Assembly (NCBI GenBank): GCA_016213945.1
Contig: JACQZF010000040.1
Span: forward strand, 1 to 64,000
DNA from: Nitrospirota bacterium
Lineage (GTDB): Bacteria > Nitrospirota > Thermodesulfovibrionia > UBA6902
Reading direction: 5' to 3'
DNA: 64,000 nt
Within the stretch, counting starts at the first letter, position 1, and every line of letters begins with the position of its first letter. Below are positions 11,989 to 59,272 of the stretch, piece by piece. The translations under genes were made by a program, and so were the position numbers. The notes beneath the pieces were generated by a model. The model saw only the letters and a list, made by a program, of their open reading frames with translations. It was not told the origin of the DNA and ran no database searches.

Positions 11989-14166
11989 ATGAAAGCAATC
12001 AAAAATAAAGCAAAGAAAGCAGCCGGTCTCCATCAAAGACCGCCGCAAGAGATGCTGAAGAAGAATGGCGACGGGAAAAACTCAGCAGTGATCGGCATCA
12101 GCGAGCGGAGAGAGATTGAAAAGAAGCTTATAGAGTCAGAGAAGAAATACAGGAGCCTGATCGCTAATTCTCTCGTCGGGGTATTTACTACGACACTGAA
12201 AGGTGAGATTATTTATGTAAATGATGCCATGTTGAGGATGTTTGAATATGACAACCTCGAAGAATTGCTTAAGAGCAGCGTTCCGTCCAGGTATAAAAAT
12301 TCTGGGGACCGGGAGGTTTTCATTGAGGCCATCAAGGAAAACGGCAGGGTTGATTCTTACGAACTTGAGCTTCTCACCAGGACAGGCAAGATTAAAAACG
12401 TGCTGATAAGCGCAACTCTTGACGGGGATATCCTGTCCGGGATGCTTATGGACATCACAGAGCGCAAGAAGATGGAAGAGACGTTACAAAAGTCAAAAGA
12501 AGAGCTGGAACTCAGGGTCCGGGAGAGGACCGCTGAACTTCTCCGGGCCAACGAAACGATAAGCGCAAGCAACGACCTGCTGCAACTGTTCACGCGGTCC
12601 TTTTCAAGAAATGATTATCTGGACTCTGTGGTAGACCTTGTAAGAGTATGGAGCAGATGCAGGTGTGTGGGCGTGAGAATATTAGATGAAAACGGAAATA
12701 TCCCTTATGAGTCATATGTTGGTTTCAGTAAAAAATTTTGGGAGCAGGAAAACTTTCTTTCGGTTAATTCAGACCGGTGCGCCTGCACAAGGGTGATGAC
12801 CGGAAAATTTGAGCGTTGCGATGCCCCCTTTGTTACTACAGCCGGGTCTTTCTTCTGCAACAACTCGCGTGAGCTTATGCGCTCACCGGAGGGAAGCGGA
12901 AAGAAGTGTTTCAGGGGCGTATGCGCTCAAAATGGTTTTGCGTCAATAGCCGTTGTCCCCCTCCGTTATCAAAACAAGGTGCTTGGGGCATTTCATCTTG
13001 CCGATAAAAAAGAAGGAAAGGTGTCCCGTAAGAATATAGAGTTCATTGAGGCGATAGCTCCCATTATCGGAGAAGTTATTCACAGATTCAGCATAGAAGA
13101 AGACCGCACGCGCCTTATGGCCGCAGCCCAATCCGCGCCTGACGCAATCATAATTACCGATGTCAAAGGGAAGATCCAGTATGCGAATCCTGCCCTTGAA
13201 CGCATAACCGGTTATTCGCTGGAAGAAGCTGCCGGGCATGATTTGCATATCCTTGACAGCGGCAGGCATGACGAAGCTTTTTATCAGGTCATCAGGGAAT
13301 CGATGAAACAGGGGAAGATCTGGAACGGCCTGCTCATAAGTAAAAAGAAAGACGGCACGCTTTATCATGAAGATTGCACCATCTCGCCGACTAAAGATGC
13401 CTCTGGAAAGATCATAAACTACGTCTCTGTGAGGCGTGATATAACCGATAAACTCAGGCTTGAGTCCATTGCGGAGGCTGTGAATGCCATGAATAATATC
13501 GGCTACATTTTTTCGGGAATCAGGCACGAAATAGGTAATCCCATCAATTCAATAAAAATGGCGCTGACAGTACTTCAGTCAAACCTGAACAATTATTCAA
13601 AAGAAGCTGTCCTTAGTTATATTCAACGCATACAGGAGGAGTTGTCACGGGTTGAATATCTGCTGAAAAACCTGAAGACTTTCAATATGTATGAAATCCC
13701 TGCATTACAGGACATGAGGATGACGGATTTTTTAGGGAAATTTCTCTCTCTGTTTAAAAACGACTATGAGAGAAAGGGTATCGCCATAACATGCTCTGTT
13801 GATCCGGATGCGGAGCTTTGCCATGCGGACCCGCGAGCTCTCCAGCAGGTGCTTTTAAATATTTCTACAAATGCAATTGACGCCTGTGAAGGGAGACCAA
13901 ACCCGAAAATTTCCATCACTGTTTCAAAAATTTCAGGTATGATACGGCTCAGGTTCTCCGACAGCGGCTGCGGCATAACCGGGGAGCATCTTGGAAATTT
14001 ATTCAAACCCTTTTACACTACCAAATCAAACGGTACAGGGCTCGGCCTGGTTATCGCTAAAAAAATGCTTGCGAAAATGAATTCCTCCATAGAGGTGAAG
14101 AGCCGTATAAATGAAGGCACTGAAGTTGACATATTTGTCCCTGAGGTCCTGAGTGAACAGCAATAG
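11989..14166 (+). CDS. Soluble PAS-GAF-PAS sensor histidine kinase
   Basis: This 725-residue kinase has no membrane segment. PAS-1 lies at about 45-160, followed by a coiled-coil linker (KEELELRVRERTAELL). Next comes a GAF-like domain (about 195-365) with many cysteines, including SDRCACTRVM, then PAS-2 (about 375-490). The phosphoacceptor box is IRHEIGNPINS (His513), and the ATPase domain shows NISTNAIDAC, DSGCGITG and GTGLGLVIAKKM. The cysteines could bind a metal or cofactor. The downstream NtrC-type regulator starts within its last codons, so the two form a pair. PAS-1 resembles the second PAS domain of the protein at 20481-21344. Confidence 0.93.
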   Translation: MKAIKNKAKKAAGLHQRPPQEMLKKNGDGKNSAVIGISERREIEKKLIESEKKYRSLIANSLVGVFTTTLKGEIIYVNDAMLRMFEYDNLEELLKSSVPSRYKNSGDREVFIEAIKENGRVDSYELELLTRTGKIKNVLISATLDGDILSGMLMDITERKKMEETLQKSKEELELRVRERTAELLRANETISASNDLLQLFTRSFSRNDYLDSVVDLVRVWSRCRCVGVRILDENGNIPYESYVGFSKKFWEQENFLSVNSDRCACTRVMTGKFERCDAPFVTTAGSFFCNNSRELMRSPEGSGKKCFRGVCAQNGFASIAVVPLRYQNKVLGAFHLADKKEGKVSRKNIEFIEAIAPIIGEVIHRFSIEEDRTRLMAAAQSAPDAIIITDVKGKIQYANPALERITGYSLEEAAGHDLHILDSGRHDEAFYQVIRESMKQGKIWNGLLISKKKDGTLYHEDCTISPTKDASGKIINYVSVRRDITDKLRLESIAEAVNAMNNIGYIFSGIRHEIGNPINSIKMALTVLQSNLNNYSKEAVLSYIQRIQEELSRVEYLLKNLKTFNMYEIPALQDMRMTDFLGKFLSLFKNDYERKGIAITCSVDPDAELCHADPRALQQVLLNISTNAIDACEGRPNPKISITVSKISGMIRLRFSDSGCGITGEHLGNLFKPFYTTKSNGTGLGLVIAKKMLAKMNSSIEVKSRINEGTEVDIFVPEVLSEQQ

Positions 14167-15505
14167 AGACAGAAGAGTCCTGCTGATAATTGATGACGAC
14201 AGGCTGTTATGCGATGCCATCAAAGACCACCTGAATAAGGACAACCTGAAGGTCCTTGCCGCGCATTCAATCGCGGACGGGACCGCCGCCTGCTCGCAGA
14301 ACAAGGTTGATATTGTCATGCTCGATCAGAACCTGCCCGATGGCGAGGGACACACGCTTTGCCCTTCAATCCTGAAATACAACGATCAGACGAAGATAAT
14401 ATTTATCACAGCCTATCCGAGCTTCGAGAACGCGGTCAGGGCCATTAAGGCGGGCGCATATGACTATCTTTCCAAACCCTTTGAGATGGAGGAGCTGTAC
14501 CTTGCCGTAAAACAGGCCTTAAAGACCCTCAGCCTTGAGAAGACCGCTCACATTGAAAGCTACAGAAAAGTTAAAGACAGCGAAGAGGCAGTCCTTGTGG
14601 GCACGAGCAGGGAGTTTATGGAAACTATAAAAGCAGTCAGTCTTGCCGCTTCAACGGACGCCCCGGTCTTAATTACCGGGGAAACCGGCACAGGCAAAAA
14701 TGTTGCGGCCAAGGCCATTCACTATAAAAGCCTTGCAAAGGAAGATGCGTTTATAAGTATCAATTGCGCCGCACTTCCGGAGAATCTCATCGAAGCGGAG
14801 CTCTTTGGCTACGAAAAAGGCGCATTCACCGGCGCTACCGCTTCCAAGCGGGGGATATTTGAAATGGCTGAAGGCGGAACACTTTTACTCGATGAAATAG
14901 GAGAAATGCCCTTACACCTCCAGTCAAAGTTCCTCAGCGTTCTGGAAGATAAAAAAATAAGAAGGCTTGGCGGAGACCTTATCCGGCCAGTAAATTTCCG
15001 CGTTATAGCCGCCACATCCGCAGACCTTGAAAACGTTATGGGCTCGAAATTCAGGAGCGACCTCTACTACCGTTTAAGCGTCATCAGGATACACATTCCC
15101 CCTTTGAGAGAAAGGCGGCAGGATATCCCCGAAATTTGCAGCTATCTCCTGAAGAAGATCGAGCACTGCAGGGAGATCAGGATAGAAGATGCCGAAATGG
15201 AGAAGCTCATGAATTATAAATGGCCCGGAAACGTGCGCGAGTTGAGAAACATTCTTGAAAGGGCCTGTCTCCTTCAGAGTGGCCCCATCATCACTCCTTC
15301 CGAGCTTCTGGGTGAAGCCGGTCTTAAACCTGACTGTCATGAAGAACTCCCGGAAGACCCCATCCTGCCGCTGGAGGAGGTGGAGAAACAGCATATCCAT
15401 TCCACACTCAAAAAACTTTCATTCAATATTTCTAAAACCTCAGCAACCCTGCAAATATCTCTTTCCACACTAAAGAGGAAGATCAAAGAATACGGTCTAA
15501 GATAA
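14153..15505 (+). CDS. NtrC-family sigma-54 response regulator
   Basis: The 450-residue activator has a receiver domain (phospho-Asp in VMLDQNLPDG), a central AAA+ domain with Walker A GETGTGKN, the sigma-54 contact loop GAFTGA and Walker B GTLLLDEIG, and a C-terminal Fis-type helix-turn-helix (ISKTSATLQISLSTLKRKI). It starts with GTG inside the PAS kinase gene. A -24/-12 promoter with upstream GTTCAAAATGGACC repeats follows directly after its stop, so the simplest reading is that it activates the receiver/multicopper oxidase genes. A second copy of this promoter architecture is at 42576-42681. Confidence 0.96.
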   Translation: MNSNRDRRVLLIIDDDRLLCDAIKDHLNKDNLKVLAAHSIADGTAACSQNKVDIVMLDQNLPDGEGHTLCPSILKYNDQTKIIFITAYPSFENAVRAIKAGAYDYLSKPFEMEELYLAVKQALKTLSLEKTAHIESYRKVKDSEEAVLVGTSREFMETIKAVSLAASTDAPVLITGETGTGKNVAAKAIHYKSLAKEDAFISINCAALPENLIEAELFGYEKGAFTGATASKRGIFEMAEGGTLLLDEIGEMPLHLQSKFLSVLEDKKIRRLGGDLIRPVNFRVIAATSADLENVMGSKFRSDLYYRLSVIRIHIPPLRERRQDIPEICSYLLKKIEHCREIRIEDAEMEKLMNYKWPGNVRELRNILERACLLQSGPIITPSELLGEAGLKPDCHEELPEDPILPLEEVEKQHIHSTLKKLSFNISKTSATLQISLSTLKRKIKEYGLR

Positions 15506-15513
15506 AATTGATA

Positions 15514-15556
15514 GTTCAAAATGGACCTGACCGTTCAAAATGGACCGTCCAATTTT
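15514..15556. promoter_or_regulatory. Tandem enhancer-like operator GTTCAAAATGGACC x2
   Basis: GTTCAAAATGGACC occurs at 15514-15527 and again at 15533-15546. The second copy runs into GTCCAATTTT, forming an imperfect dyad AAAATGGAC-C-GTCCAATTTT. The copies lie about 100 and 80 bp upstream of the -24 element, the usual distance for NtrC-type activator sites. A near-identical site, GTTCAAAATGAACCGTCCAA, occurs at 42576. Confidence 0.7.
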
Positions 15557-15613
15557 AGCGTCCCCCAATACTCCTGATAGTCCACTCTGTTGATTTTACT
15601 CGCCAATTAGAAG

Positions 15614-15628
15614 TGGCATTGTCCTTGC
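15614..15628 (+). promoter_or_regulatory. Sigma-54 (-24/-12) promoter of the receiver/multicopper oxidase genes
   Basis: TGGCATTGTCCTTGC has the GG and GC dinucleotides at the required spacing (GG-N10-GC). The predicted transcription start is near 15640, only about two bases before the ATG of the receiver gene. Confidence 0.78.
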
Positions 15629-15641
15629 GATAAGAAATTTA

Positions 15642-16085: not shown

Positions 16086-16102
16086 AAAAGGAGGGGAATA
16101 AT

Positions 16103-16171
16103 GTGAAAAAAACCCAACAAGAACCTTGCGTTAAACAAAAACAAAAAAGAAAGGAGAGACGACATGAATAA
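16103..16171 (+). CDS. Possible 22-residue lysine-rich leader peptide
   Basis: A GTG at 16103 has a strong ribosome site, AAGGAGG, 8 bases upstream. It opens 22 codons starting MKKTQQEPCVKQKQKR and its stop TAA overlaps the beginning of the next gene. The peptide is highly basic with one cysteine. It may be a translation-coupling leader for the small secreted protein; its size makes the call weak. Confidence 0.3.
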   Translation: MKKTQQEPCVKQKQKRKERRHE

Positions 16172-16466
16172 GATCAAATTCTTAATTTTAATGGGCCTGC
16201 TACTGGCAGCTACTGCCTTTTACCTGGGAGCTGACCAGGGACATGCGCAGCCGCAACCAGCCGCGGAAGAACCGTTAAGTGATTTCCTGGCCGGGGCCAA
16301 GGGAAAAGTGAAGCCCTCGGAGATTAAAGCAGTGGCTGCTCGCATGGCAGCAGCAAAAGCTGCAAAGACCCGGACCGCTGCAGAAGGGCAGAACAACCAT
16401 AATCAGCCTTCCGCTCCCGCCCCTGACGCGGCAACCGTTAACAGTACAGGAGGGGAGACAAAATGA
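16164..16466 (+). CDS. Small secreted protein of unknown function, coupled to the multicopper oxidase
   Basis: The 100-residue product has a signal peptide (MNKIKFLILMGLLLAATAF...GHAQ) and a mature part rich in Ala, Lys, Pro and Gln, including KPSEIKAVAARMAAAKAAK. It has no cysteine or clear metal motif and looks unstructured or helical. An AAGGAGAG ribosome site lies upstream, and its TGA overlaps the oxidase ATG as ATGA (16463-16466), so the two are translated together. It could be a chaperone, anchor or copper-delivery partner, but the sequence gives no direct proof. I do not recognise a family. Confidence 0.75.
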   Translation: MNKIKFLILMGLLLAATAFYLGADQGHAQPQPAAEEPLSDFLAGAKGKVKPSEIKAVAARMAAAKAAKTRTAAEGQNNHNQPSAPAPDAATVNSTGGETK

Positions 16467-19400
16467 ATAAGCAAAATATCATGACCTGGATAAGAGTTAC
16501 ATTGGCTGTAGCTTTACTTGTTTGCGGAATTGAGTATGACCGCGCCTTTGCTATCGGGCCCGGCGACACACCGGATTACTTTGCTACACCTAACTGGGCC
16601 AATAGTCCGCCCTTGAGGAAATTTGTCGACACCCTGCCGGGTCTTGGCCCCACGAATGCAAACAACCTCGGACAGTACATCCCGGTTGCTGCACCGGACA
16701 CCATCACTTACCCCGGCTCTGACTACTACGCGATCGAGCTGAGAGAGTACTCCGAGCAGATGCATTCCGACATGCCACCGACCAGACTGCGTGGTTATGT
16801 GCAGGTCAACAACGGCACGGACGCCGGCGGACAGAACACCATTGCGCCTGCGACGATCCATTATTTAGGGCCGCTGATCATTGCCCAGAAGGACCGGCCG
16901 ATCCGCATTAAGTTCACCAATAAACTTCCTGTTGGCAGTGCGGGCGACCTCTTCGTTCCTGTTGACACAACTATCATGGGCTCGGGGGAATTTGAGATCG
17001 ATTATGATCCTGAAACTCTTGAACCCATTCCCATGACTTCCGGCACTTTCAAACAGAACCGCGCCACGCTCCATCTCCACGGCGGACGCACTCCGTGGAT
17101 AAGCGACGGTACCCCCCACCAGTGGATCACCCCGGCGGGAGAGGTCACTGAATATCCCAAGGGCGTCAGTGTGCAGAACGTCCCCGACATGCCGGATCCC
17201 GGCGATGGATCACAGACATTTTACTGGACCAACCAGCAAAGTTCGAGGCTGATGTTTTACCACGACCACGCCTGGGGGATCACGCGCCTCAACGTTTATG
17301 TAGGCGAGGCCGCGGGATATCTTATCACGGATCCTGCAGAGCAAGCACTGGTCAACTCCGGGCTCATCCCTGCGGACCAGATCCCACTGGTTATTCAGGA
17401 AAAGACCTTTGTGGATCCTGCTACCATAATAAATACAGACCCGACATGGGCCTGGGGATCACAACCCTGGGATGGTACCACCGGCGCCCCAATGACACCG
17501 GTTAAAGGCGACCTCTGGTATCCCCATGTCTACATGCCGGCACAGAACCCCTTTGATATGAGCGGTATAAACGCAATGGGCCGGTGGCACTATGGCCCAT
17601 GGTTTTGGCCGCCGACTCCATTATGTTATTCTGCAGGCGGGACCGATCCTTTAGCGGTGAAACCGTATTGCATTGATTATGCACCGGTCGCAAATCCCTA
17701 TTACGATCCTGCCTGCGATCCGGATGTAACAGGCTGGTGCCAGCCGCCGCAGATGCCCGGCACACCTAATCCATCATGGGGCGCGGAAGCGTTTCTGGAC
17801 ACCCCGGTGGTCAATGGAACTGCTTATCCAACTGTTACAGTAGACCCAAAGGCCTACCGCTTACGGATACTGAACGCCGGCAATGACCGGTTCCTCAACC
17901 TGCAGATGTATCAGGCCAGCACTATCATAGGCAGCATCACCGTTGACAATCCGGGCAGTGGTTATACGGGTGTTATTGGAGTTGCCATCACTGGCGGTGG
18001 CGGCAGGGGAGCCACTGCAGAAGCGACCACAGACCCGGATACTGGCGCCATTACAGACATCACATTGACAAGTGTAGGGAGTGGATATACATCACTTCCG
18101 ACAGTTATTATCACAGGCTCCGGCACAGGCGCTACAGCAACGGCTGTCCTGTATACGGCCCCAACAGAAGTCGGGATGGTTCCTGCGGCACTGACCCCGG
18201 GTTTCCCGACAAGCTGGCCGACAGACGGCAGGGAAGGTGGCGTGCCTGATCCGGCCACTTCCGGCCCGGCGTTTATTCAGATCGGGACAGAAAGCGGCTT
18301 CCTGCCTGCGCCAGTGCTGCTGGAAAACCAGCCGGTTGCATGGAACCTCGATCCGACTATGTTCAATGTTGGAAATGTGCTCCAGCAGGCTGATGGCGGC
18401 GGTACGTTGCTCATAGGTCCGGCTGAACGGGTGGACGTCATCGTAGACTTTTCCCAATATGCAGGCAAGACCCTGATCCTTTATAACGATGCCCCTACGG
18501 CGTTCCCGGCGCTCGATCCGCACTACGACTACTACACGGGCGCACCGGACCGCACTGACATGGGCGGAGCTCCGGCGGTACTGCCGGGTCTTGGTCCCAA
18601 TGTCCGGACGATCATGCAAATCAAGGTAACGGGAAGCGGCGGCGCCGCACCTGTCAACGATTATAATGCTGCTACCCTTACGAATTTGCAGAATGCTTTC
18701 AAGTCAACCGGAAGCGTGGCAACAGGCGACTATGTTCCGGGTGTCTTCGCGGCATCACAGGAACCTATCATTGTGGGGCAGAGAGCCTATGGCCTGGGTG
18801 CTGGCGGCAGTTCTGCTTACAGCACAACGTTCCCAAATACATGGCCCTACTGGGGCGTATCGAGGATATCAGATAACTACCTGAGCTTCAATACGGTTGA
18901 CGGCAACCCGGCTACGATCCTTATGAAGCCCAAAGCCATTCAGGACGAGATGGGCGAGACCTTCGATGCCTATGGACGGATGAGCGCCAAGCTTGGACTC
19001 GAAGTGCCGTTTACTAACGGCCAGAACCAGAACTTTAATGTCCAAAATTATGTTGATCCGGCCACAGAGATATTAAACGAAAACGAAGTCCAGATATGGA
19101 AGATCACGCACAATGGCGTGGACACGCATCCTATCCACTTCCACATGTTCGACGTGCAGTTGATCAACCGGGTTGGCTGGGACGGGTTTATCAGACTGCC
19201 CGATCCCAATGAGTTAGGCTGGAAAGACACTATCAGGATAGCCCCGCTGGAGGACACGATCGTTGCGTTGAGGCCGGCCACTCCAAAGGTCCCCTTTGGT
19301 CAGCCGGACAGTATTCGCCCTCTGAACCCTGAGGCGCCCCTTGGTTCCATGATGGGGTTCTCTCAGATAGACCCGCTTACGGGAGCCCGCACAGCGCCAC

Positions 19401-20419
19401 CAACCACTAATCAGTTTTATGACTTCGGCTGGGAATACGTGTGGCACTGCCACCTCCTGAGCCACGAAGAGAACGACATGATGCGCTCGATTGTCTTCAA
19501 TGTTGCGCGTGAGCTGCCGGCTGTGCCGGTACTGGCCGCTGCCTTGACAGAAGCCAATCAGGTCAATCTAACATGGACGGATGCCACGCCTCCAAACAAT
19601 CCCTTGACATTAGGCAACCCGGCCAATGAAATCGGTTTCAGGATTGAGCGTTGCACAGGGGCAGGCTGCATTGATTTTGCCCCCCTAATATCAGCCCTTG
19701 CCAATGCGACAGGCTATCTTGATACTACTGTAGCGCCTGTCACGACGTACAGGTATTACATCACTGCTTACAACGTGGCCGGTGATTCGCTACCCTCGAA
19801 CATTGTAACGGTCGTAGTGCCTGCGCTGGCGCTTCCCAACGCGCCTTCGGGACTGGTTGCCACGGCGTCTCCACTCAGTTCGAACCCCCCGACAGTGACT
19901 TTGAGATGGACTGACAATTCCGGCATAGAGTCCGGTTTCTTTATCCAGAGGGCAACGAATACTTCCTTCACTAATGGACTGACGACCTTCACGGTTGGAG
20001 GAAACGTGATAGCATTTACCGACACAACGGTTGCACCACGGACGAGATATTACTACAGGGTAAGAGCCTACAATGCGGCTGGCAACTCCGCATATTCCAA
20101 CACTGTACAAGTCACTTCGTCTCGCTGGATTCCGGCTACTCCGACGAACCTGATGTTTGTCAGCTCAACTAATAGCTCCATCACCATTTCCTGGACGGAC
20201 AATGCCTCAAACGAGCAGGGGTTCACCATACAAAGGGCGCCTAATGTTCGCAACAGGCCGGGAGCTTGGGCCACGATAGCAACAGTCGGGATCAACACAA
20301 CGACCTATACGGACAACGGTTTGACAAGCAATACAAGATACTGGTACCGCATCCGGGCATTTAATGCCGACGGCAACAGTGCATATTCCAACACGACTTC
20401 CGGCAGCACTCTGCCATAA
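16463..20419 (+). CDS. Exported multicopper oxidase (CotA/bilirubin oxidase-like) with three fibronectin III domains
   Basis: The 1318-residue protein has a signal peptide and all four multicopper oxidase copper-binding motifs: HLHGG near residue 203, FYHDHAWGITRLNVY near 265, THPIHFHMF near 888 and WHCHLLSHEENDMM near 993. These should form the T1 copper and the T2/T3 cluster that reduces oxygen to water. A glycine-rich beta-repeat insert (about 491-567, with NPGSGYTG and VGSGYTSLP) interrupts the cupredoxin core. From about 1015 three fibronectin type III domains follow, suggesting attachment to the surface or a polymer. The substrate (metal ion, phenol or other) cannot be read from the sequence; Mn(II) is one possibility. 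It ends at a strong terminator. Confidence 0.93.
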   Translation: MNKQNIMTWIRVTLAVALLVCGIEYDRAFAIGPGDTPDYFATPNWANSPPLRKFVDTLPGLGPTNANNLGQYIPVAAPDTITYPGSDYYAIELREYSEQMHSDMPPTRLRGYVQVNNGTDAGGQNTIAPATIHYLGPLIIAQKDRPIRIKFTNKLPVGSAGDLFVPVDTTIMGSGEFEIDYDPETLEPIPMTSGTFKQNRATLHLHGGRTPWISDGTPHQWITPAGEVTEYPKGVSVQNVPDMPDPGDGSQTFYWTNQQSSRLMFYHDHAWGITRLNVYVGEAAGYLITDPAEQALVNSGLIPADQIPLVIQEKTFVDPATIINTDPTWAWGSQPWDGTTGAPMTPVKGDLWYPHVYMPAQNPFDMSGINAMGRWHYGPWFWPPTPLCYSAGGTDPLAVKPYCIDYAPVANPYYDPACDPDVTGWCQPPQMPGTPNPSWGAEAFLDTPVVNGTAYPTVTVDPKAYRLRILNAGNDRFLNLQMYQASTIIGSITVDNPGSGYTGVIGVAITGGGGRGATAEATTDPDTGAITDITLTSVGSGYTSLPTVIITGSGTGATATAVLYTAPTEVGMVPAALTPGFPTSWPTDGREGGVPDPATSGPAFIQIGTESGFLPAPVLLENQPVAWNLDPTMFNVGNVLQQADGGGTLLIGPAERVDVIVDFSQYAGKTLILYNDAPTAFPALDPHYDYYTGAPDRTDMGGAPAVLPGLGPNVRTIMQIKVTGSGGAAPVNDYNAATLTNLQNAFKSTGSVATGDYVPGVFAASQEPIIVGQRAYGLGAGGSSAYSTTFPNTWPYWGVSRISDNYLSFNTVDGNPATILMKPKAIQDEMGETFDAYGRMSAKLGLEVPFTNGQNQNFNVQNYVDPATEILNENEVQIWKITHNGVDTHPIHFHMFDVQLINRVGWDGFIRLPDPNELGWKDTIRIAPLEDTIVALRPATPKVPFGQPDSIRPLNPEAPLGSMMGFSQIDPLTGARTAPPTTNQFYDFGWEYVWHCHLLSHEENDMMRSIVFNVARELPAVPVLAAALTEANQVNLTWTDATPPNNPLTLGNPANEIGFRIERCTGAGCIDFAPLISALANATGYLDTTVAPVTTYRYYITAYNVAGDSLPSNIVTVVVPALALPNAPSGLVATASPLSSNPPTVTLRWTDNSGIESGFFIQRATNTSFTNGLTTFTVGGNVIAFTDTTVAPRTRYYYRVRAYNAAGNSAYSNTVQVTSSRWIPATPTNLMFVSSTNSSITISWTDNASNEQGFTIQRAPNVRNRPGAWATIATVGINTTTYTDNGLTSNTRYWYRIRAFNADGNSAYSNTTSGSTLP

Positions 20420-41281: not shown

Positions 41282-42547
41282 ATGAAAAAAACTTTTGTCC
41301 TTGACACGAACGTATTAATCCACGACCCGGAAGCCATCCTTCAATTTGCAGACAATGATATCATATTGCCGATTACTGTCATCGAGGAATTAGATAAATT
41401 AAAGAGAGGCAACGGCGAAATCCCGTACTCCGCGCGGCAGGCGTTGAGGCTGATAGATTCTTTCAGGGAGCAGGGCAATTTATCAGCCGGGGTCAAAACG
41501 CCAAGCGGCGGCTCGCTTCGTGTAATGATCGAAGAGAGCATGCACCTGTCCAGGTCTTCAAACGACAACAGGATTATTTCCGCAGCCGTCTCTCTTGCAA
41601 ACGTCGATAACGCGCCCCATCCGGTAATACTCGTATCAAAAGACACGTCTGTCAGGATCAAGGCGGACGCGCTCGGACTTGTCACGCAGGATTATCTTAA
41701 AGACAAAACCACAGTGTTCCAGAGATACGGGAGTATTATCGATGGAGAGGAAGTTACAAACGGCATCAAATCAGTACGGTATTTGAAATCCGGGGACAAG
41801 ATATTCAGGGTCTACGGCGAAAACAAAATGGAACCTGTCAGGAGACAGCGCTCTGTCATGAACATCTCCCCGAAAAATATAGAGCAGGAATGCGCAATCG
41901 ACGCCCTCCTGTCGCCCCAGATAAGCGTGATAGCCCTTACCGGAAGGGCGGGTACCGGTAAGACGCTGCTTGCTATCGCCGCCGGTTTATATTTCTGCAC
42001 AAAACCTGTACACAAAGGCGCGCCGGAGTATTCAAGGAGATACGAGCAGGTCATGGTCGCAAGGCCAATCGTCCCGCTTGGCAATGACCTGGGTTTTCTG
42101 CCCGGAGACGTGACAGAAAAACTCCACCCGTGGATGCAGCCGATATACGACAATCTGGACTTCATTGTCGGCACGCCAAACGAGCACGGCGATGACAAAG
42201 AAAGCGATTACCGGAGCGCGGACTACCTGATTGAATCCGGGATCGTCCACATCGAACCCCTTACCTACATCAGGGGCAGAAGCCTGCCGAGGCGTTTCCT
42301 CATTATTGACGAGGCGCAGAACCTGAGGCCCCTTGACGTCAAGACCATTATAACAAGATGCGGGGAGGGGACAAAGGTTGTTTTTACCGGCGATCTGGAG
42401 CAGATCGATTCCCCCTTTCTTGACGCCGCGTCTAACGGCCTGGCCCACTTGATAAATAAATTTATCCAGGAAGAAAATTTCTGCTATCTGAACCTAAAGC
42501 AAAGCGCGCGCTCTGTCCTCGCAGAACGCGCGGCAGAGTTGTTGTGA
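41282..42547 (+). CDS. PIN-PhoH fusion protein (PhoH2/YlaK type)
   Basis: The N-terminal ~150 residues form a PIN RNase domain with acidic residues in FVLDTNVLIHD, EELDKLK and the later SNDNRI. The C-terminal part is a PhoH ATPase with Walker A GRAGTGKT near 222 and Walker B FLIIDEAQNL. PhoH2 proteins act as ATP-driven RNA helicases/RNases and in some bacteria behave as toxins; here no antitoxin gene is evident. The 421-residue length is normal for the fusion. A sigma-54-type promoter region follows directly after its stop. Confidence 0.93.
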   Translation: MKKTFVLDTNVLIHDPEAILQFADNDIILPITVIEELDKLKRGNGEIPYSARQALRLIDSFREQGNLSAGVKTPSGGSLRVMIEESMHLSRSSNDNRIISAAVSLANVDNAPHPVILVSKDTSVRIKADALGLVTQDYLKDKTTVFQRYGSIIDGEEVTNGIKSVRYLKSGDKIFRVYGENKMEPVRRQRSVMNISPKNIEQECAIDALLSPQISVIALTGRAGTGKTLLAIAAGLYFCTKPVHKGAPEYSRRYEQVMVARPIVPLGNDLGFLPGDVTEKLHPWMQPIYDNLDFIVGTPNEHGDDKESDYRSADYLIESGIVHIEPLTYIRGRSLPRRFLIIDEAQNLRPLDVKTIITRCGEGTKVVFTGDLEQIDSPFLDAASNGLAHLINKFIQEENFCYLNLKQSARSVLAERAAELL

Positions 42548-42575
42548 GCGCCTTCAATTCCTTTCAGTGGATATA

Positions 42576-42595
42576 GTTCAAAATGAACCGTCCAA
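42576..42595. promoter_or_regulatory. Enhancer-like operator GTTCAAAATGAACCGTCCAA
   Basis: GTTCA-AAA-TGAAC is a perfect inverted repeat (42576-42588) and continues CCGTCCAA, the same as the site at 15533 except for one base (A for G). It lies 92 bp upstream of the -24 element. Confidence 0.7.
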
Positions 42596-42666
42596 AATAA
42601 GCAAGTTATAGCCCTGTTAAAAACCTCAGATTTCTCAATTCCGTAAATCCACCTATTTTTAAAAAG

Positions 42667-42681
42667 TGGCATCTCACTTGC
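42667..42681 (+). promoter_or_regulatory. Second sigma-54 (-24/-12) promoter
   Basis: TGGCATCTCACTTGC has GG-N10-GC spacing and shares the flanking AAGTGGCAT with the promoter at 15614. The predicted start of transcription is near 42693. Confidence 0.75.
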
Positions 42682-42692
42682 GAATAGGACAG

Positions 42693-42879
42693 GCAGGGAA
42701 AATCTTCAGGCTTGCTATGCGTCGATTTTCACTCCCGTATTAAACGGGCTATAGCAGATAAAAAGGAGGTGGCAGGCGCAAAAACTGACCTCGGATGTCA
42801 ATAGTGGACACCAAACCTTTTAGGCCGCTACTACTGAAACACTTGCAAGGGTCGCCCGAAAGGGCGGCCCGCCTTTTTT
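42693..42879 (+). ncRNA. Candidate structured small RNA under sigma-54 control
   Basis: No coding frame with a credible start fits between the sigma-54 promoter and the intrinsic terminator at 42849-42879. The predicted ~187-nt transcript contains a two-part hairpin (GCTAT...CCCGT-ATTAA-ACGGG...ATAGC, 42714-42756). Next is an exposed Shine-Dalgarno-like AAAAGGAGGT (42761-42770) that can pair through GAGGT with ACCTC about 17 bases later, then the hairpin TGTC-AATAGTG-GACA near 42796. It does not match any riboswitch I can recall. The ends are predicted from promoter and terminator. Part of it (CTGACCTCGGATGTCAATAG) could be an insertion sequence end instead. Confidence 0.55.
42849..42879 (+). 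terminator. Intrinsic terminator of the candidate small RNA
   Basis: GGGTCGCCC-GAAA-GGGCGGCCC is a 9 bp stem with one G-U pair, closed by a GAAA tetraloop and followed by GCCTTTTTT. Confidence 0.88.
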
Positions 42880-42942
42880 AGAATTTTGCTACAAAAAAAG
42901 AAGAGCGGGAGAAAGACAGAGTAAATTTGCTATCATTAAACA

Positions 42943-43485
42943 ATGAGTCACATTTGTCCTTCATGGCTGTCATTTGTTCTCTATAATCCTGTAAGAAAAT
43001 ATTTTACCGACAGAGAAAAGATTCTTGATGAATCGGGGATCGAAGCGGGTTCGGTGGTGCTTGAGATCGGGCCGGGTAACGGTTTTCTGACAGAGGCAAT
43101 TGCTGGACGCGCCCAACGAGTCGTCTCTGTTGAATTACAGCCCGGCATGGTGAGAAAGCTGAATAAGAGGGTAATGAGTTTTGGCGGCAAGGTTGAGCTT
43201 GTTACTGCCGATATAGCTTTACACCGCGCTGGAGATTCATTTGCGGATGTGTGCCTTCTGTATTACTGTTTCCACGAAATAAAAAACCAGGATGCCGCTG
43301 TAATAAATATCAGCAGGGCTGTTAAATCCGGCGGAGTCCTTGCTATCTTTGAACCGGTTGTCGAGGTGAATAAAGTAAAGATGGAAAGGACTGTCGGGAT
43401 GTTCGAGAGTGCCGGTTTCAAGAGGGAATCGGAGCACAAAACGTTATTCACCAGGTTTGCAAGATTGAAGAAGCTGCCGGTTTAA
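42943..43485 (+). CDS. Class I SAM-dependent methyltransferase
   Basis: The 180-residue protein has the SAM-binding motif I VVLEIGPGNGFLTEAI, motif II acidic residue in VVSVELQPGM and motif III-like VCLLYYCFHEIKNQD. It resembles small UbiE/rRNA-type methyltransferases but has no further domain to fix the substrate. It starts 63 bp after the small RNA terminator. The PilZ gene follows after 42 bp on the same strand. Confidence 0.85.
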   Translation: MSHICPSWLSFVLYNPVRKYFTDREKILDESGIEAGSVVLEIGPGNGFLTEAIAGRAQRVVSVELQPGMVRKLNKRVMSFGGKVELVTADIALHRAGDSFADVCLLYYCFHEIKNQDAAVINISRAVKSGGVLAIFEPVVEVNKVKMERTVGMFESAGFKRESEHKTLFTRFARLKKLPV

Positions 43486-52114: not shown

Positions 52115-52774
52115 TCACATTTCTCCATTCTCAAGAAAACTGTAATACCCTTTATGGTTAAAGATTATATGATCGAGCAGGCGGATACCGAGGGTTTCGC
52201 CTGCGGACTTCAGTTGTTTGGTAATATCCGTGTCTTCTTTACTTGGAGTTAACCCACCGGATGGATGATTATGAGCAACGATGATTGCTGACGCCCGGTC
52301 TGTAATTGGCTCTGCAAATACTTCGCGTGGATGCGCCTGTGTTTTATTAACCAGCCCGACAGATACGACACGGCTTGCGATCACTTCATTAGCGCCATTT
52401 ATTGAAATGCTTATAAAATGTTCCTGCTTGCGGTCGGCATAATGCTGGATCAATGGAAGCACGTCAGCAGGGAAAGAGATTCTTAATCCTTCAGGACGAA
52501 TGCGGCGGCGGGCAAATTCAAGGGCCGCAGCAATAAGAGTTGCCTTTGCCAATCCTACGCCTTCAATCTTTTGTAATTCTTCGATATCCAGCTTTGCATT
52601 ATTACCATCCAGGGCTTTAAGTATCCGGTCCGCAACTTTCATAACATCATGGCCCTTTGTTCCGCTGCCCAGAAGTATGGCCATCAGTTCAAGGTCGGAT
52701 AAAGCTTCCGCGCCTTTTTGACGGAGTTTTTCGCGAGGACGGTCCGGTTCGGGAATGTCTCTCAGCTTTTTCAT
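52115..52774 (-). CDS. radC: RadC-family JAMM-domain protein, last gene of the restriction operon
   Basis: The 219-residue protein has an N-terminal helix-hairpin-helix part (LQKIEGVGLAKATLIAAAL) and the C-terminal MPN/JAMM domain with the zinc motif HNHPSGGLTPSKED (HxHPSGxxxPSxxD). Despite the name, a DNA-repair role of RadC is disputed; the domain resembles metal-dependent proteases. Its ATG overlaps the hsdS stop as ATGA (52771-52774), so it is translated with the restriction-modification genes, which suggests a role connected to defence or mobile DNA. Confidence 0.93.
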   Translation of the reverse strand: MKKLRDIPEPDRPREKLRQKGAEALSDLELMAILLGSGTKGHDVMKVADRILKALDGNNAKLDIEELQKIEGVGLAKATLIAAALEFARRRIRPEGLRISFPADVLPLIQHYADRKQEHFISISINGANEVIASRVVSVGLVNKTQAHPREVFAEPITDRASAIIVAHNHPSGGLTPSKEDTDITKQLKSAGETLGIRLLDHIIFNHKGYYSFLENGEM

Positions 52775-54123
52775 TGTTTGTTTCCTTTAGACCGAACATT
52801 CTTCTTTTCGTTCTTCTCCCGTTCCGCCTTAATCTTCTCCAGCAGCACTGACGCGGGCTCATCATTCGGGTCCTGCGGGACAAGTTCACCGCGAAAGGCC
52901 TTGGCAAGGATGGACTGGGTGAGCTTGTCAACGTAGGCATTGGCCTTGATATAGCGGGCCTCGATCTGGTCAGCCAGAGCAAACAACGCCTCCACCCGGC
53001 GGACGATTTCTTTTTGTTCAGGGAGAGGGGGAACTGGAAGCGTCACATCAGAAATCTTAGAGATACTTAGCGTATGTAAACCAGCTGTTGATGTTGCCTT
53101 TTCTATGAGTTGTGCGCGACCCTCCGGTGCCATCATTTGCAGCAAAACATAGATAGGGATTACACCTTTTCCGGATCTGAACTTTATCAGGTGATTTTGG
53201 TGTACACATCTTGCAATTGAGCCATCCCAAAGGGCCACGCGACCAATCTGATCGAGGCTTCCATTTCCTTCTACAAAAAGGATATCCTCTTTGACCAATC
53301 GTGCGCGTTCGAACTCTTGCTCCGTAACTCCAATTTTAAATACCTCACCGAGTTCCAGCCTGTTTTGATAAACGTTTGCCACGCGAAGATAGGGAGTTTG
53401 CAAGCTAAGCTTATTGCGCTTCGAGTTTTTCGTAATCCCCCCAGTTACACTTCCGACCTCAGACAAATCATGAACAACCCATTCTTTGTCATGGCTATTT
53501 TTCTCCCTCCAATCCGCCGTCAATCTTCCCGAACAGGCGGCGGCGAGGACGGATTGGCGAAAACGTTTGAGGATTACCGGTATCTTCGCCAGCCGCTTTT
53601 GGCAGGCGTCCACTTTGTCTAACAGCATCTCCAACTTCGCCACAAGGCGGCGCTGCTCGTTGAGCGGCGCCAAGCGGAAAGGCAATGACTCAATGTCTAT
53701 GGCACTGACATTAACGACACCTAGTCCTTTGGCCTTTTCCATAAGTTGTTGCTCAATAGTCTTGAGATACTCCCACATAAAACGCCAATCAAGAAAATCT
53801 ATTGAGAACGGAACCATTTTGCCTGTGCGCTGATTCTGAAGAGCAGGCTTGTCTATGTCATAAACGCAGAGTTTACCTACAGAGCCAGACATACCGATGA
53901 GCACGTCATTTTTGCGAAGAATGAAATCCGGTTTGAGCTTTAGCCACTTTGCATCGAGATAGACACAATGTTCCAAAGACACCCTATTACCGTCAAGATT
54001 GCTTTGCCTTATTACGGGCACACCAGTTTGCTGAAAGTCCTTGCTTGGGAATGCATACCCATTTTGTACTTTTATTACGTCATCAAGAAGGCAGACAGCC
54101 CACCCCGTCGGCAACTCACTCAT
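52771..54123 (-). CDS. hsdS: Type I restriction-modification specificity subunit
   Basis: From ATG at 54123 the 450-residue protein has two target-recognition domains joined by conserved helices: LPTGWAVCLLDDVIKVQNG opens the first, LAPLNEQRRLVAKLEMLLDK closes it, and VPPLPEQKEIVRRVEALFAL closes the second. HsdS chooses the bipartite DNA target and holds two HsdM subunits. The ATG lies 8 bases inside the upstream nuclease gene, so the longer frame from 54189 is rejected. Target sequence cannot be read from the protein. Confidence 0.95.
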   Translation of the reverse strand: MSELPTGWAVCLLDDVIKVQNGYAFPSKDFQQTGVPVIRQSNLDGNRVSLEHCVYLDAKWLKLKPDFILRKNDVLIGMSGSVGKLCVYDIDKPALQNQRTGKMVPFSIDFLDWRFMWEYLKTIEQQLMEKAKGLGVVNVSAIDIESLPFRLAPLNEQRRLVAKLEMLLDKVDACQKRLAKIPVILKRFRQSVLAAACSGRLTADWREKNSHDKEWVVHDLSEVGSVTGGITKNSKRNKLSLQTPYLRVANVYQNRLELGEVFKIGVTEQEFERARLVKEDILFVEGNGSLDQIGRVALWDGSIARCVHQNHLIKFRSGKGVIPIYVLLQMMAPEGRAQLIEKATSTAGLHTLSISKISDVTLPVPPLPEQKEIVRRVEALFALADQIEARYIKANAYVDKLTQSILAKAFRGELVPQDPNDEPASVLLEKIKAEREKNEKKNVRSKGNKQ

Positions 54124-55162
54124 GCCCCGCTCCGAGTTCTTTGAGTATCTCTTGCTCGATTTCTTTGGCATCAGGCAATTTGCCCGCAAGCCCTTCCGGC
54201 AGTTCTTTTGTCAAGCTGTATTCCGCCACACCTACAGGCTTATTAATATTCCTCAAGGCGTATTCAACTTCCACTCTGTCGCGTTCAGCGCAAAGGATAA
54301 TTCCTATCGAGGGGTTTTCATCGGGTTCTTTAACCAGGTCGTCAAGGAGATTCAGATAAAAATTCATCTTGCCTGCGTATTCCGGCTGGAAACTGCCCGC
54401 CTTCAGTTCTATAGCCACAAGGCTTTTAAGTTTGCGGTGATAAAACAGCAGGTCGATAAAGTATTCCTTGTCATTAAGCTTTATGCGGTACTGATTGCCG
54501 ATGAAAGAAAAGCCGTATCCCAGTTCGAGAATGACATCCCGTATTCTGTTGACCATGCGCCTTTCCATTTCCCGCTCGACTACAGGCTTGCCGATGCCGA
54601 GGAAATCAAGCATATAGACATCTTTCATGGCTTCTTCAGCCTGTTGCGCGATATGTTCAGGCAGTGTCTCAATAAAATTATGCTGTTTATTACTCGCTAC
54701 CTGACGCTCATAAGCCTTAGCTTTTATCTGATTCAGAAGGATATTGCGGCTCCAGCCAAGTTTTGCAGACATTTGAAGATAATATGTCCGTTCCACGACA
54801 GACTTTGTTTTTGTCATTACAGTAATATTGTGTCCCCACGGAATTTCTCTAACAAGTTGTAAGAGATTTGGCTGATCTTTATATTCAACATACATCTGGC
54901 GCATAAACCAGAGATTTGGCGCAGAAAATCCCGAAGTTCCGGGGAACTCTTTTATCAAGTCACCGGACAGTTTCTGCACAACAGACTTACCCCATCCCTC
55001 CCTTTCCTGACGTTCAGCAATTGCTTTCCCAATATTCCAGTAAAGCCCGACCATCTCTTTATTAGCAGAATAATATGCTCGGGTGCGCGTCTGTTGGATT
55101 GTATGCTTTATGCTGGTTAGAAATTCAGCATAAGAAGAATTACTGATTTTGTTTTCAGCCAT
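54116..55162 (-). CDS. DUF1016 (YhcG) PD-(D/E)xK nuclease-family protein within the hsd operon
   Basis: The N-terminal domain (YWNIGKAIAERQEREGWGK, GFSAPNLWFMRQMYVEY) is the DUF1016 winged-helix-like part. The C-terminal domain has the nuclease core EYFIDLLFYHRKLKSLVAIELKAG (core residues D, ExK seen in IDLLFYHR and IELKAG). Start ATG at 55162 lies 8 bases inside hsdM, and its end overlaps hsdS by 8 bases. DUF1016 genes occur repeatedly inside type I restriction operons and in transposition-like recombination, but their role there is not settled. Here the gene should be coexpressed with hsdM and hsdS. Confidence 0.92.
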   Translation of the reverse strand: MAENKISNSSYAEFLTSIKHTIQQTRTRAYYSANKEMVGLYWNIGKAIAERQEREGWGKSVVQKLSGDLIKEFPGTSGFSAPNLWFMRQMYVEYKDQPNLLQLVREIPWGHNITVMTKTKSVVERTYYLQMSAKLGWSRNILLNQIKAKAYERQVASNKQHNFIETLPEHIAQQAEEAMKDVYMLDFLGIGKPVVEREMERRMVNRIRDVILELGYGFSFIGNQYRIKLNDKEYFIDLLFYHRKLKSLVAIELKAGSFQPEYAGKMNFYLNLLDDLVKEPDENPSIGIILCAERDRVEVEYALRNINKPVGVAEYSLTKELPEGLAGKLPDAKEIEQEILKELGAGHE

Positions 55163-56573
55163 TGTTAGTCCCCCCATTATTTTCAATCAATTGTAACATT
55201 TCTTTTAAATCATCCACTACCGCCTCAAGCTCTGTAATCGCCTCACTGGCCAAGTCCTGCGGTTCAGGCAGTCCGTCGCTGTCTTCGAGAGAATCATCTT
55301 TGAGCCATGTGATATCGAGCTTGAAGTTTCGCTCTTTGATCTCATCGACATGAAACTTACGGAAGCGGCCTTCCTCCCCTAAGTCTTTCCGCTTGCTCTG
55401 ACCATTAGGGTCTTTGCCGTAACACTTTTCAAATTCCTCAAAATGCTTCGGACTTAACGGGCGGTCCTTCTTCGTAATGCCCGGCACATTGGAGCGGGCA
55501 TCGAAGATCCAGACGTCTTCGGTCTTCGCACCCTTCTGGAAAAAGATAACATTTGCCTTCACTCCCTGGCTGTAAGGCGTAAACGTGCCTCGCGGCAGGC
55601 GCAGGATGGTGTGAAGGTTGCAGTCCTGCATAAGGATTTCAAAAACTTCGCCTGCCTTATTTTCAAAGAGACAATTGTCAGGCAGAACAATCGCAGCCCT
55701 GCCGCCGGGTTTGAGAATATTCATCACATGCTGTACAAAGTTCAATTGCTTATTGCTCGTTTCGATAGTGAAGTCGTCCCGCTCCGGCGCCTGGTTCGCG
55801 CCTTTGGTGCCGAAGGGCGGATTGGTCAGTACGCAGTTATAAAGCTCTCCTCTGTTCGGCTCATAGATCGTATCGCCCAAATAAATCCTCGCCTCCAACC
55901 CATGCAGGAAAAGATTCATGAGCGCAAGCCTTCTTGGGCGCGGCACTAAATCCTGACCATAATAAGTCGCGGACTTTATCCGTTTTATATCTTTGCGGTC
56001 GAATGCGCCTTTAGTCTGCTCTATCAACCATTCGTAAGCGCAGACCAGAAAACCTCCTGTGCCGCAGGCAGGATCGCAGACCGTGAAATCACGGGCATCG
56101 CGCGGGTCGGGTTTCATGACCCGGACGATGGACTGGATCAGAACGCGAGGGGTGAAGTACTGTCCCGCACCCTTCTTTCCTTCACTCGCCGCTCTTTCGA
56201 GCAGACCTTCAAAGGCCGCACCCTTCACATCCACATTCATCTCAGACCATTCTTCCTCGTCAATCATATTGATGACCCGCTTCAGGTTCACCGGATTATT
56301 GAAGCGCGGCATTGACTGGGCAAAGATGTCGCCCAGGATTCCTTTTGCCTCGCGAAGCTTGCGAAGTATATCGGAATAATGATCAGTCAGGCGTGTCCCC
56401 GATAGTTCTTTAAGGCTTGTCCAGTCGCATCCTTTGGGCACTTCAATATCCCGCTCATCAGCCATCTTGAGAAAGAGCAGATAGGTTAGCTGTTCTATGT
56501 AATCGCCGTAGTCTATTCCGTCATGTCGCAATGTGTGACAGAATCCCCAGAGTTTGTTAACAATATCAGACAT
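55155..56573 (-). CDS. hsdM: Type I restriction-modification DNA methyltransferase subunit
   Basis: HsdM transfers methyl from SAM to adenine N6 in the target. The 472-residue protein has the N-terminal helical domain (LWGFCHTLRHDGIDYGDYIE), SAM motif CDPACGTGGFLVCAY and catalytic motif NPPFGTKG (NPPF). A ribosome site AAGGA lies 5 bases before the ATG, and the gene starts 11 bp after hsdR. Its stop overlaps the DUF1016 gene start. All catalytic parts are present, so modification activity is expected. Confidence 0.97.
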   Translation of the reverse strand: MSDIVNKLWGFCHTLRHDGIDYGDYIEQLTYLLFLKMADERDIEVPKGCDWTSLKELSGTRLTDHYSDILRKLREAKGILGDIFAQSMPRFNNPVNLKRVINMIDEEEWSEMNVDVKGAAFEGLLERAASEGKKGAGQYFTPRVLIQSIVRVMKPDPRDARDFTVCDPACGTGGFLVCAYEWLIEQTKGAFDRKDIKRIKSATYYGQDLVPRPRRLALMNLFLHGLEARIYLGDTIYEPNRGELYNCVLTNPPFGTKGANQAPERDDFTIETSNKQLNFVQHVMNILKPGGRAAIVLPDNCLFENKAGEVFEILMQDCNLHTILRLPRGTFTPYSQGVKANVIFFQKGAKTEDVWIFDARSNVPGITKKDRPLSPKHFEEFEKCYGKDPNGQSKRKDLGEEGRFRKFHVDEIKERNFKLDITWLKDDSLEDSDGLPEPQDLASEAITELEAVVDDLKEMLQLIENNGGTNNG

Positions 56574-56584
56574 TCAAATCCTTT

Positions 56585-59272
56585 CTAAGCTGCTATGGCC
56601 GCATTGATCTCAGTCAGCAGCAATGATAGTTCTTTATCAAAGACCCTTCTTGCCTTTCCCAACCCGCCGTTCCGTTCAAAGATCGGCGCATAATCCAGAT
56701 CGGTCTCTTCTATAGTGAGATTCTTCACCAGATGGTCGCGGATAAGACCAAGCCATTTCTGCTGCTCTTCATTAAAGCTCTTGCCGTCCGTAACCTTCTT
56801 CATAGCCCTGTCCACCCGCTCTTCTGCAGTCAGCATCGGTTCCTGCTCTTTGGCCGCATGTTTGACCATGGAGATAATATCCACGAGAGGCTTTTTGTAG
56901 ACGTACTTATGCGCCTTTTCGAGTTCGTCAGGCGGGAACTTGTTTTGTTTCAGCTTTTCGACCAATTCATTCAACACAGCGGTCTTCCATTCTTTAGGTT
57001 TCTCCATCAAGATTCGTATGGCTTCGATATGTTCCGGGTTTTCCTTTACGAACCGTGAGAAGGAAACCAGGTAATCCTCCGGCTTCTGATATTCAGAACC
57101 TCTGCGGATCATAACCTCTGAATTGACAGTATCCTTAACATCGTAACCGATAATGAAAGAGCGTTTCGGCCTGGGATAGTTCTGCAACAAGTCCTGAAAA
57201 TCCTTGTCCCGCAGGAGCTTCATCGTGTTCGTGAAATCCTTATTTATCTTGTTTGCCAGTTCGGATGCAAACCTGCCCATATCGCCATCAGGAATATATG
57301 TTGAAAACTTTTCTCTTGCCTCGCCGCCCATTTCTTTCTCGATACGGCGCAGGCGTTTGACGAGTACCTTGATATGGTAATTACGGTCAATGTTCTGATA
57401 AATATTTTCAATCACCTGCGGAAGGGACAGAGCCTCTTTCTGAAGGGATACATCAAAATCCGTGGTGTTCTTGAAATACTCGATCAGCGTCCCGTTGAAA
57501 CAGTCAAAAATCGTGAAGTGAGTTTTATTGATTCCAGGGCAAAGACGTGTTCCCCGTCCGAGCATCTGCACCCAGAGGATACGTGATTTGACGGGGCGTA
57601 GAAATACGATAAATTCGAGGCTCGGAATATCAACACCAGTGGTCAGCATATCAACCGAAACAACGACCTTAGGATTTGGACGGTTTCTGAATTCCCGGAT
57701 CTTCTGCAAAGGCCGGTCCACGCTCTTGCTGCCGGTGATCTTCTGGACGAAATCGTCTCCCTTTCCGAATACCTCACGGCATATCTTCACAAGCTGATCG
57801 GCATGTGAGGTGAATGGAAAGTCATTTACAGCAAAGATGAGCGTCTTGGGGAATCGGCCTGTTTCTTCTTCGTGCCTGCGCGCATAGTCAGCTATCTCAG
57901 TTATTATTTTAAGATTGCTCTCAGGCGAGGTGATCTTATGTTCAATATCTGCTGAACCGAACTCTCGTTCATCCTCAAGGGCGTCATAAATAATCTTGCC
58001 GGTACTTGTATCAACTATGCCGACCTGCTCGCCTTCTTTAAGGAAAGCTCCATTCATGCGAACGTTTGAGTTAATTCGTACAGCATCATAATCTACAAGG
58101 AACCCGTCAAGAATTGCCTGCTCCGTAGTATATCGATAGACAACATCCCTGAAATATGCAAGGGTATGAGATGCCGGGGTGGCAGTGAGACCGATCTTTA
58201 TGGAATCAAAATAATCCAGTACGTTACGCCAGATTGAAGTGTCTCGTGAGGTATAACCACGGTGACATTCATCGGCAATGATTACATCAAAGGCGTGAAT
58301 AGGGATGTCAATCTTTTCAGCATCGCTTTCATCATCAGGGTCGCCGCCATCCTGAGGAAAAGCGCTCTCCCAGCCGAACAGATTGACGCACATCCTCTGA
58401 ATCGTGGAAACGTAAACGAATGTATGAGCTGGTTTTGGGGCCGTCAGATAAGAACCGGGCAAAACTTTGGGATCAAACGGTTTGTCGTCATCGAAATCCT
58501 CTCGGTAAAATCGCTGGCTGAAGACTTCGTATTCCTGAATAAATTTATTCCCTTTCGGAGTATTGAATGCTGCAAAGGCGCTGACAGCCTGTGCAGCAAG
58601 CGCACGTCGGTCAACCAGAAAGAGGATGCGTTTCGCTGCTTTTGATTCGAGAAGGCGATAGATCTGAGCTACCGTCGCATATGTCTTGCCAGTACCGGTT
58701 GCCATTGCGATCAGCATGGTGCGTTTCCCCTGGATCATAGCAGTCTCAATGGAAGCAATGGCGTCTTTCTGATAATCACGCAGTCTCTCTATGTTGTTAG
58801 GAGTGGCTTGAAGCCATGCGGCGCTGCCAGCTTTATGATCATTGAATAATTCTGTGAGAGCATCAGCCGTATGAAAATTGGCAATCTGGCGGGAAAGGTT
58901 TTGCTCATTGCGGACATCTATGTGAAAAATCAGTGCACCATTTGTTGAATAAAGAAAAGGAACACGATAACCATTCCAATTACCCGGCCCTTTAAAAGAT
59001 CCCCTTGAGTATCGCTTTGCCTGCTCCAGTACATTCTGAGGGCCGACGGATACTTTTTTGGCTTCAAGAATTCCAAGCAGCTTTCCATTCACAAAAAAGG
59101 CGTAATCAGCAGGGCCATGTGCTGTCTGGTATTCTTCAACAGCATGGCGCTCAAGTGAGGAAGTATCTAATGTTTCATTATATCTGATGATAGTCCATGC
59201 GGGATTGAGGGCAGTAAGTTTCTTATTGATCCGGTCTCGTCGTGTTTGCCATTCTTTTTCGTGTTCTGTCAT
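56585..59272 (-). CDS. hsdR: Type I restriction endonuclease subunit (EcoEI type)
   Basis: The 895-residue motor subunit has the N-terminal nuclease with Asp56 in PADY and Glu70-x-Lys72 in LEAKK, then a superfamily 2 translocase with Walker A MATGTGKT near 190, DECH near 332, LTATPASH and the motif VI region MLGRGTRLCPG. All motifs are intact, so cleavage is expected if HsdM and HsdS assemble. It is the first gene in its operon with a good promoter. The EcoEI group is inferred from the domain order and length. Confidence 0.97.
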   Translation of the reverse strand: MTEHEKEWQTRRDRINKKLTALNPAWTIIRYNETLDTSSLERHAVEEYQTAHGPADYAFFVNGKLLGILEAKKVSVGPQNVLEQAKRYSRGSFKGPGNWNGYRVPFLYSTNGALIFHIDVRNEQNLSRQIANFHTADALTELFNDHKAGSAAWLQATPNNIERLRDYQKDAIASIETAMIQGKRTMLIAMATGTGKTYATVAQIYRLLESKAAKRILFLVDRRALAAQAVSAFAAFNTPKGNKFIQEYEVFSQRFYREDFDDDKPFDPKVLPGSYLTAPKPAHTFVYVSTIQRMCVNLFGWESAFPQDGGDPDDESDAEKIDIPIHAFDVIIADECHRGYTSRDTSIWRNVLDYFDSIKIGLTATPASHTLAYFRDVVYRYTTEQAILDGFLVDYDAVRINSNVRMNGAFLKEGEQVGIVDTSTGKIIYDALEDEREFGSADIEHKITSPESNLKIITEIADYARRHEEETGRFPKTLIFAVNDFPFTSHADQLVKICREVFGKGDDFVQKITGSKSVDRPLQKIREFRNRPNPKVVVSVDMLTTGVDIPSLEFIVFLRPVKSRILWVQMLGRGTRLCPGINKTHFTIFDCFNGTLIEYFKNTTDFDVSLQKEALSLPQVIENIYQNIDRNYHIKVLVKRLRRIEKEMGGEAREKFSTYIPDGDMGRFASELANKINKDFTNTMKLLRDKDFQDLLQNYPRPKRSFIIGYDVKDTVNSEVMIRRGSEYQKPEDYLVSFSRFVKENPEHIEAIRILMEKPKEWKTAVLNELVEKLKQNKFPPDELEKAHKYVYKKPLVDIISMVKHAAKEQEPMLTAEERVDRAMKKVTDGKSFNEEQQKWLGLIRDHLVKNLTIEETDLDYAPIFERNGGLGKARRVFDKELSLLLTEINAAIAA

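Follow-up and report, generated by a model that had tools for sequence, protein, structure and literature searches.

Small RNAs whose transcription depends on sigma-54 and a bEBP are established, with Qrr1 of Vibrio (PMC10162802) and CrcZ/CrcY of Pseudomonas (PMC6296734) as the closest described systems. Deletions that leave a partial element and remove neighbouring DNA have been documented for IS629, a member of the IS3 family (PMC9330008). The locus considered here lies in the genome of a Nitrospirota bacterium (G000), within a 64,000-nt stretch of contig JACQZF010000040.1 that is referred to below as the window. From the letters of this stretch alone, a sigma-54-driven small regulatory RNA had been proposed, and a sigma-54-activated RNA had been thought to be new, a novelty that does not hold because Qrr1 and CrcZ/CrcY are already well known. 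The present analysis leads to a different reading, which is considered probable. The feature would be a genuine sigma-54 promoter of the multicopper oxidase (MCO) two-component regulon that has lost its own gene, and its RNA of ~187 nt is most likely a by-product without evolved function rather than a regulator. The coordinates of all features are collected in Table 1.

Table 1. Features of the candidate locus and of the MCO regulon reference in the window.
Feature	Position	Strand	Basis
Response regulator of the NtrC type with receiver, sigma-54 AAA+, and Fis HTH; presumed to activate the candidate promoter	14153..15505	+	Pfam
Tandem MCO-operon enhancer sites (15514-15527, 15533-15546), regulon reference	15514..15546	+	Sequence comparison
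MCO-operon sigma-54 promoter, TGGCATTGTCCTTGC	15614..15628	+	Sequence, core pattern
Stretch of 395 bp that G004, the closest relative, lacks; TGAG on either side (42545-42548, 42944-42947)	42549..42943		G004 comparison
Upstream activating sequence (enhancer) GTTCAAAATGAACC; palindrome GTTCA-AAA-TGAAC; putative binding target of the regulator at 14153-15505	42576..42589	+	Genome motif count, phylum layout
Sigma-54 promoter -24/-12, TGGCATCTCACTTGC	42667..42681	+	Sequence, genome-wide core enrichment, alignment with G004 MCO promoter
Predicted untranslated leader, orphan sequence	42693..42785	+	No homologue in collections searched
Shine-Dalgarno-like AAGGAGGT, no start codon at usable distance	42763..42770	+	Sequence, small-ORF list
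IS3-type insertion sequence terminus, outer end 42786, body would extend rightwards, transposase on - strand	42786..42830	-	Pattern, copies in relatives
Intrinsic terminator	42849..42879	+	9-bp stem 42849-42870 plus T-run

The -24/-12 promoter described in the sequence-only reading was confirmed, as TGGCATCTCACTTGC matches the consensus TGGCA..TTGC and keeps the GG-N10-GC spacing exactly. From its position, transcription is predicted to start at ~42693. Across the whole genome the core TGGCA-N5-Y-TTGC had 31 matches versus 8 with the pattern reversed as a control, which puts the share of core matches expected by chance at roughly one in four (about 26%); the candidate promoter stands above this chance level because the enhancer GTTCAAAATGAACC is present at 42576. 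Exact copies of GTTCAAAATGRACC occur three times in the 3.5 Mb genome, two at the MCO promoter and one at the candidate, while a fourth enhancer-like site with one mismatch (contig C97) was dismissed because it lies inside a coding gene. When the surrounding 396 bp were compared with the window, ATAGTTCAAAATGAACCGTCC at 42573 was found to resemble the tandem GTTCAAAATGGACC at 15514 and 15533. At the candidate, GTTCAAAATGAACC lies 91 bp from the -24 element, compared with 82 and 101 bp for the two sites of the MCO promoter. Identity to the MCO promoter of G004 is 70% from the enhancer to -24 (42576-42672). A dead or accidental promoter, with the terminator merely ending the phoH mRNA, is therefore very unlikely, since the enhancer distance is the usual one and the sequence resembles the G004 promoter; the expected share of chance core matches, the missing gene, and the single enhancer copy instead of the two at the MCO promoter are what can be said for it.

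In the window the MCO operon adjoins the NtrC-type regulator. Among 20 relatives searched, only G004 had a clear ortholog of this regulator (90%), and in that genome a tandem enhancer stands at the MCO promoter and another promoter of the regulon precedes a multihaem-cytochrome-like gene. Approximately 85,000 genomes were scanned for the enhancer followed after 60-90 bp by a -24/-12 element, and 19 stretches were returned. Six of the 19 (five Nitrospirae and one deltaproteobacterial) had the layout ahead of a CheY-like receiver gene, and in those that were checked an NtrC-type regulator came immediately before the layout; many of the others were chance-like, falling inside coding genes or in unrelated contexts. 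A looser enhancer plus -24/-12 pattern gave 17 matches in 396 genomes of the phylum versus none for the reversed pattern. The combination is thus conserved throughout the phylum and also outside it, usually with an orthologous regulator directly in front and a CheY-like gene following. Because of the shared enhancer, the phylum-wide layout, and the similarity to the G004 MCO promoter, the candidate promoter is very probably real and a member of the MCO two-component regulon, and the regulator would bind and activate it. The original suggestion that it shares a regulon with the multicopper oxidase was thus strengthened by GTTCAAAATGAACC, which in this genome is common only to the candidate and the MCO promoter.

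Several further observations concern the regulon. The G004 multihaem-cytochrome-like gene preceded by enhancer and sigma-54 promoter (contig C37, L092:1501-3014) is missing from the window genome and had weak MtrC/MtrF-like and c554-like Pfam matches. A conserved module of enhancer (TTCAAAATGRACC), sigma-54 promoter, and CheY-like gene was seen in the window (11989-20419), where a sensor kinase and the NtrC-type regulator come first, and in L095, L097, L098, L108, L110, L111, and L164, with Nitrospirae and at least one deltaproteobacterium as hosts. This module of regulator, enhancer, sigma-54 promoter, and CheY-like gene is apparently one of self-linked control. The CheY-like start codon follows only ~13-18 nt past the -12 element (window 15628-15642; L095, L098, L110, L164), so in several genomes the sigma-54 mRNA of this gene would have no leader or almost none.

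The promoter is not followed by a recognizable gene. No + strand ORF of more than 30 aa was detected in 42693-42879, and the + strand frames of 25, 28, and 30 aa were rejected as none has Shine-Dalgarno spacing and the 28-aa frame crosses the terminator. The earlier statement that the stretch holds no credible gene was therefore correct. At two promoters with the same enhancer layout (L092 and L165), leaders of 100-140 nt end in AAAAGGAG before an ATG. The Shine-Dalgarno-like motif of the candidate, AAGGAGGT, could be a chance occurrence. Against a lost gene is the finding that no start codon is present between AAGGAGGT and the boundary of the insertion sequence (IS), so the start of that gene would have lain at least 16 nt from the Shine-Dalgarno core, which is long. 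The leader (42690-42785) had no homologue in 396 phylum genomes, in plasmids, in phages, or, by exact 30-mer, in viral contigs. Matches in relatives and in the 396 phylum genomes were short and of the kind expected by chance; the best one, of 30 bp in L007, falls inside a permease gene. No genome that still has the lost gene turned up among the relatives and phylum genomes searched.

Immediately behind the leader lies an IS end, which agrees with an IS-end pattern at 30 of 30 positions and with two copies in G009 at 40 of 45. At least ten copies begin at the same base with unrelated left flanks. The motif TGA..TC.GATGTCAATAGTGGACACCAAA is found at the copy edges in G006, G007, G009, G011, G013, G016, G021, and G040, and because unrelated DNA stands immediately to its left, the element boundary is placed at 42786. 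The terminal repeat begins with 5'-TG and is sharply bounded against these flanks. Better-preserved copies encode a transposase C-terminus (YLSPAAYE...) on the inner side and opposite strand, and an ORF beside the IS end in one related copy (L008) matched Pfam rve_2 (E 6.7e-7); the window copy keeps the end only. The element is assigned to the IS3 family from the rve_2 match, the motif at the transposase C-terminus, and the 5'-TG with which the end begins. The same end apparently also occurs as a short solo fragment in G006 and G007 (L002:110-148, L004:1504-1529), and similar scars may be common in the genus. The window copy is the sole copy of this IS end in its genome, leaving no resident IS for the RNA to act on, and antisense control of such an element was rejected for this reason.

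The intrinsic terminator had also been identified correctly, its 9-bp stem and T-run folding at -21 kcal/mol (z -3.9). Several hairpins had been expected in the RNA, and hairpins are possible, but once the terminator is left out, folding is no stronger than in shuffled sequences (z = +0.19 for 42690-42833 and -1.12 for 42690-42785). Likewise, the Shine-Dalgarno-like motif and the ACCTC (42788-42792) said to hide it are both present and able to pair, but the hairpin is fortuitous because ACCTC sits inside the transposon end. A search of Rfam returned no family at the gathering score and a best E of ~1 at lax thresholds.

Comparison with G004 gave insight into the history of the locus. There, phoH abuts the methyltransferase gene, whose GTG start overlaps the TGA stop, and the TGAG that flanks the 395-bp stretch on each side in the window is present once. 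Either acquisition by the window genome or loss from G004 via the TGAG repeats would fit. A two-ended mobile element was rejected for the 395-bp stretch, as no terminal inverted repeats were seen by eye and the IS end is internal. Among the relatives compared, other members of the genus lack a methyltransferase at this locus. In the window, TGCTATCAT at 42929-42943, just upstream of the methyltransferase ATG, is an extended -10 look-alike, which would give a leaderless methyltransferase mRNA and possibly replace co-transcription with phoH. Elsewhere in the window (52771-59272), translated ORFs resemble by eye the specificity, methylase, and helicase-nuclease subunits of type I restriction-modification systems; a further ORF (54116-55186) lies among these.

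This gene order also bears on whether the RNA is a leader with an attenuator for the methyltransferase (42943), in which sigma-54 induction would raise readthrough into the methyltransferase, PilZ, and MinD-like genes. All elements are on the + strand, only 63 nt separate the terminator from the start codon, and the overlap with the phoH stop in G004 implies that the methyltransferase is naturally co-transcribed from upstream. We nevertheless regard an attenuator as quite improbable, since the terminator is strong, no alternative antiterminator stem is evident, Rfam gave no riboswitch or attenuator, and the layout is without conservation.

The preferred reading remains that of a promoter deprived of its gene. 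Once phosphorylated, the NtrC-type regulator (14153-15505) would occupy GTTCAAAATGAACC at 42576 and activate sigma-54 polymerase at 42667-42681, and the transcript would run from ~42693 through the leader ending in AAGGAGGT, across the 45 bp of the IS3-type end, and stop at 42849-42879. We infer that a gene originally stood behind the leader, as is the case for the leaders of 100-140 nt at L092 and L165. Its coding sequence would have been lost through an IS3 insertion and a subsequent deletion, which fused the leader to the terminator; the deletion endpoints in this model are guessed. With an active regulator the promoter would still fire, yielding a short untranslated RNA.

The predicted transcript is discrete, ~187 nt long, free of ORFs, and terminator-ended, which are attributes of a regulatory sRNA. 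A young, lineage-specific sigma-54 sRNA with a captured transposon end, induced together with the MCO operon and working through base pairing, would account for the promoter and terminator that delimit it and for the still good motif match of the promoter, and both sigma-54 sRNAs (PMC10162802, PMC6296734) and IS-derived sRNAs (PMC12594629) exist. Such an RNA is unlikely, however, as it lacks conservation in the 396 phylum genomes, is missing in the nearest relative, consists to a quarter of IS debris, and has a body that folds like shuffles. In a crude duplex scan of 63 translation-start regions of the window, its best match was weaker than that of many shuffled RNAs. It is quite doubtful that capture of the IS3 end between leader and terminator created a new regulatory RNA, which would then be a sigma-54 sRNA linked to redox or copper and confined to a single species.

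The small regulatory RNA of the sequence-only reading was thus not borne out, given the IS end inside it, a leader without homologue, and a body that folds like shuffles. Among the findings that this reading had itself named as speaking against it were absent conservation of sequence or stems and a match of 42770-42815 to an insertion sequence end. The locus is missing in G004 with no leader homologue in 396 genomes, and 42786-42830 is an IS3-type terminus.

What is new is a further sigma-54 regulon member together with the enhancer motif, and the apparent survival of a promoter beyond its own gene. The regulon thereby enlarged is conserved in Nitrospirae-type bacteria and seems not to have been described before, and the enhancer motif makes it searchable. 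The locus also advises caution, as a promoter and a terminator without an ORF are insufficient for an sRNA call when transposon debris lies between them. Were the RNA functional, it would represent an sRNA caught at birth.

Among known systems, Qrr1 and CrcZ/CrcY share with the candidate enhancer sites, a -24/-12 promoter, and a terminator around a short ORF-free stretch, together with an NtrC-type bEBP. They are conserved in families and have defined targets, whereas the candidate has no conserved sequence or structure and bears an IS scar. As in IS200 5'tnpA (PMC12594629), transposon sequence lies within a short RNA; in IS200, however, the IS itself is transcribed and processed, while the candidate includes only a 45-bp outer end, antisense to the transposase, behind a host promoter. 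Partial and adjacent deletion scars of the IS3 family (IS629/IEE type, PMC9330008) likewise show one element-end fragment beside a deletion, although here the event is inferred and only one end is left. The nearest counterparts are the MCO regulon promoters in Nitrospirae, with regulator, enhancer, sigma-54 promoter, and CheY-like gene. The candidate has the same enhancer motif, spacing, and -24/-12 element, but stands away from the regulator and without a gene.
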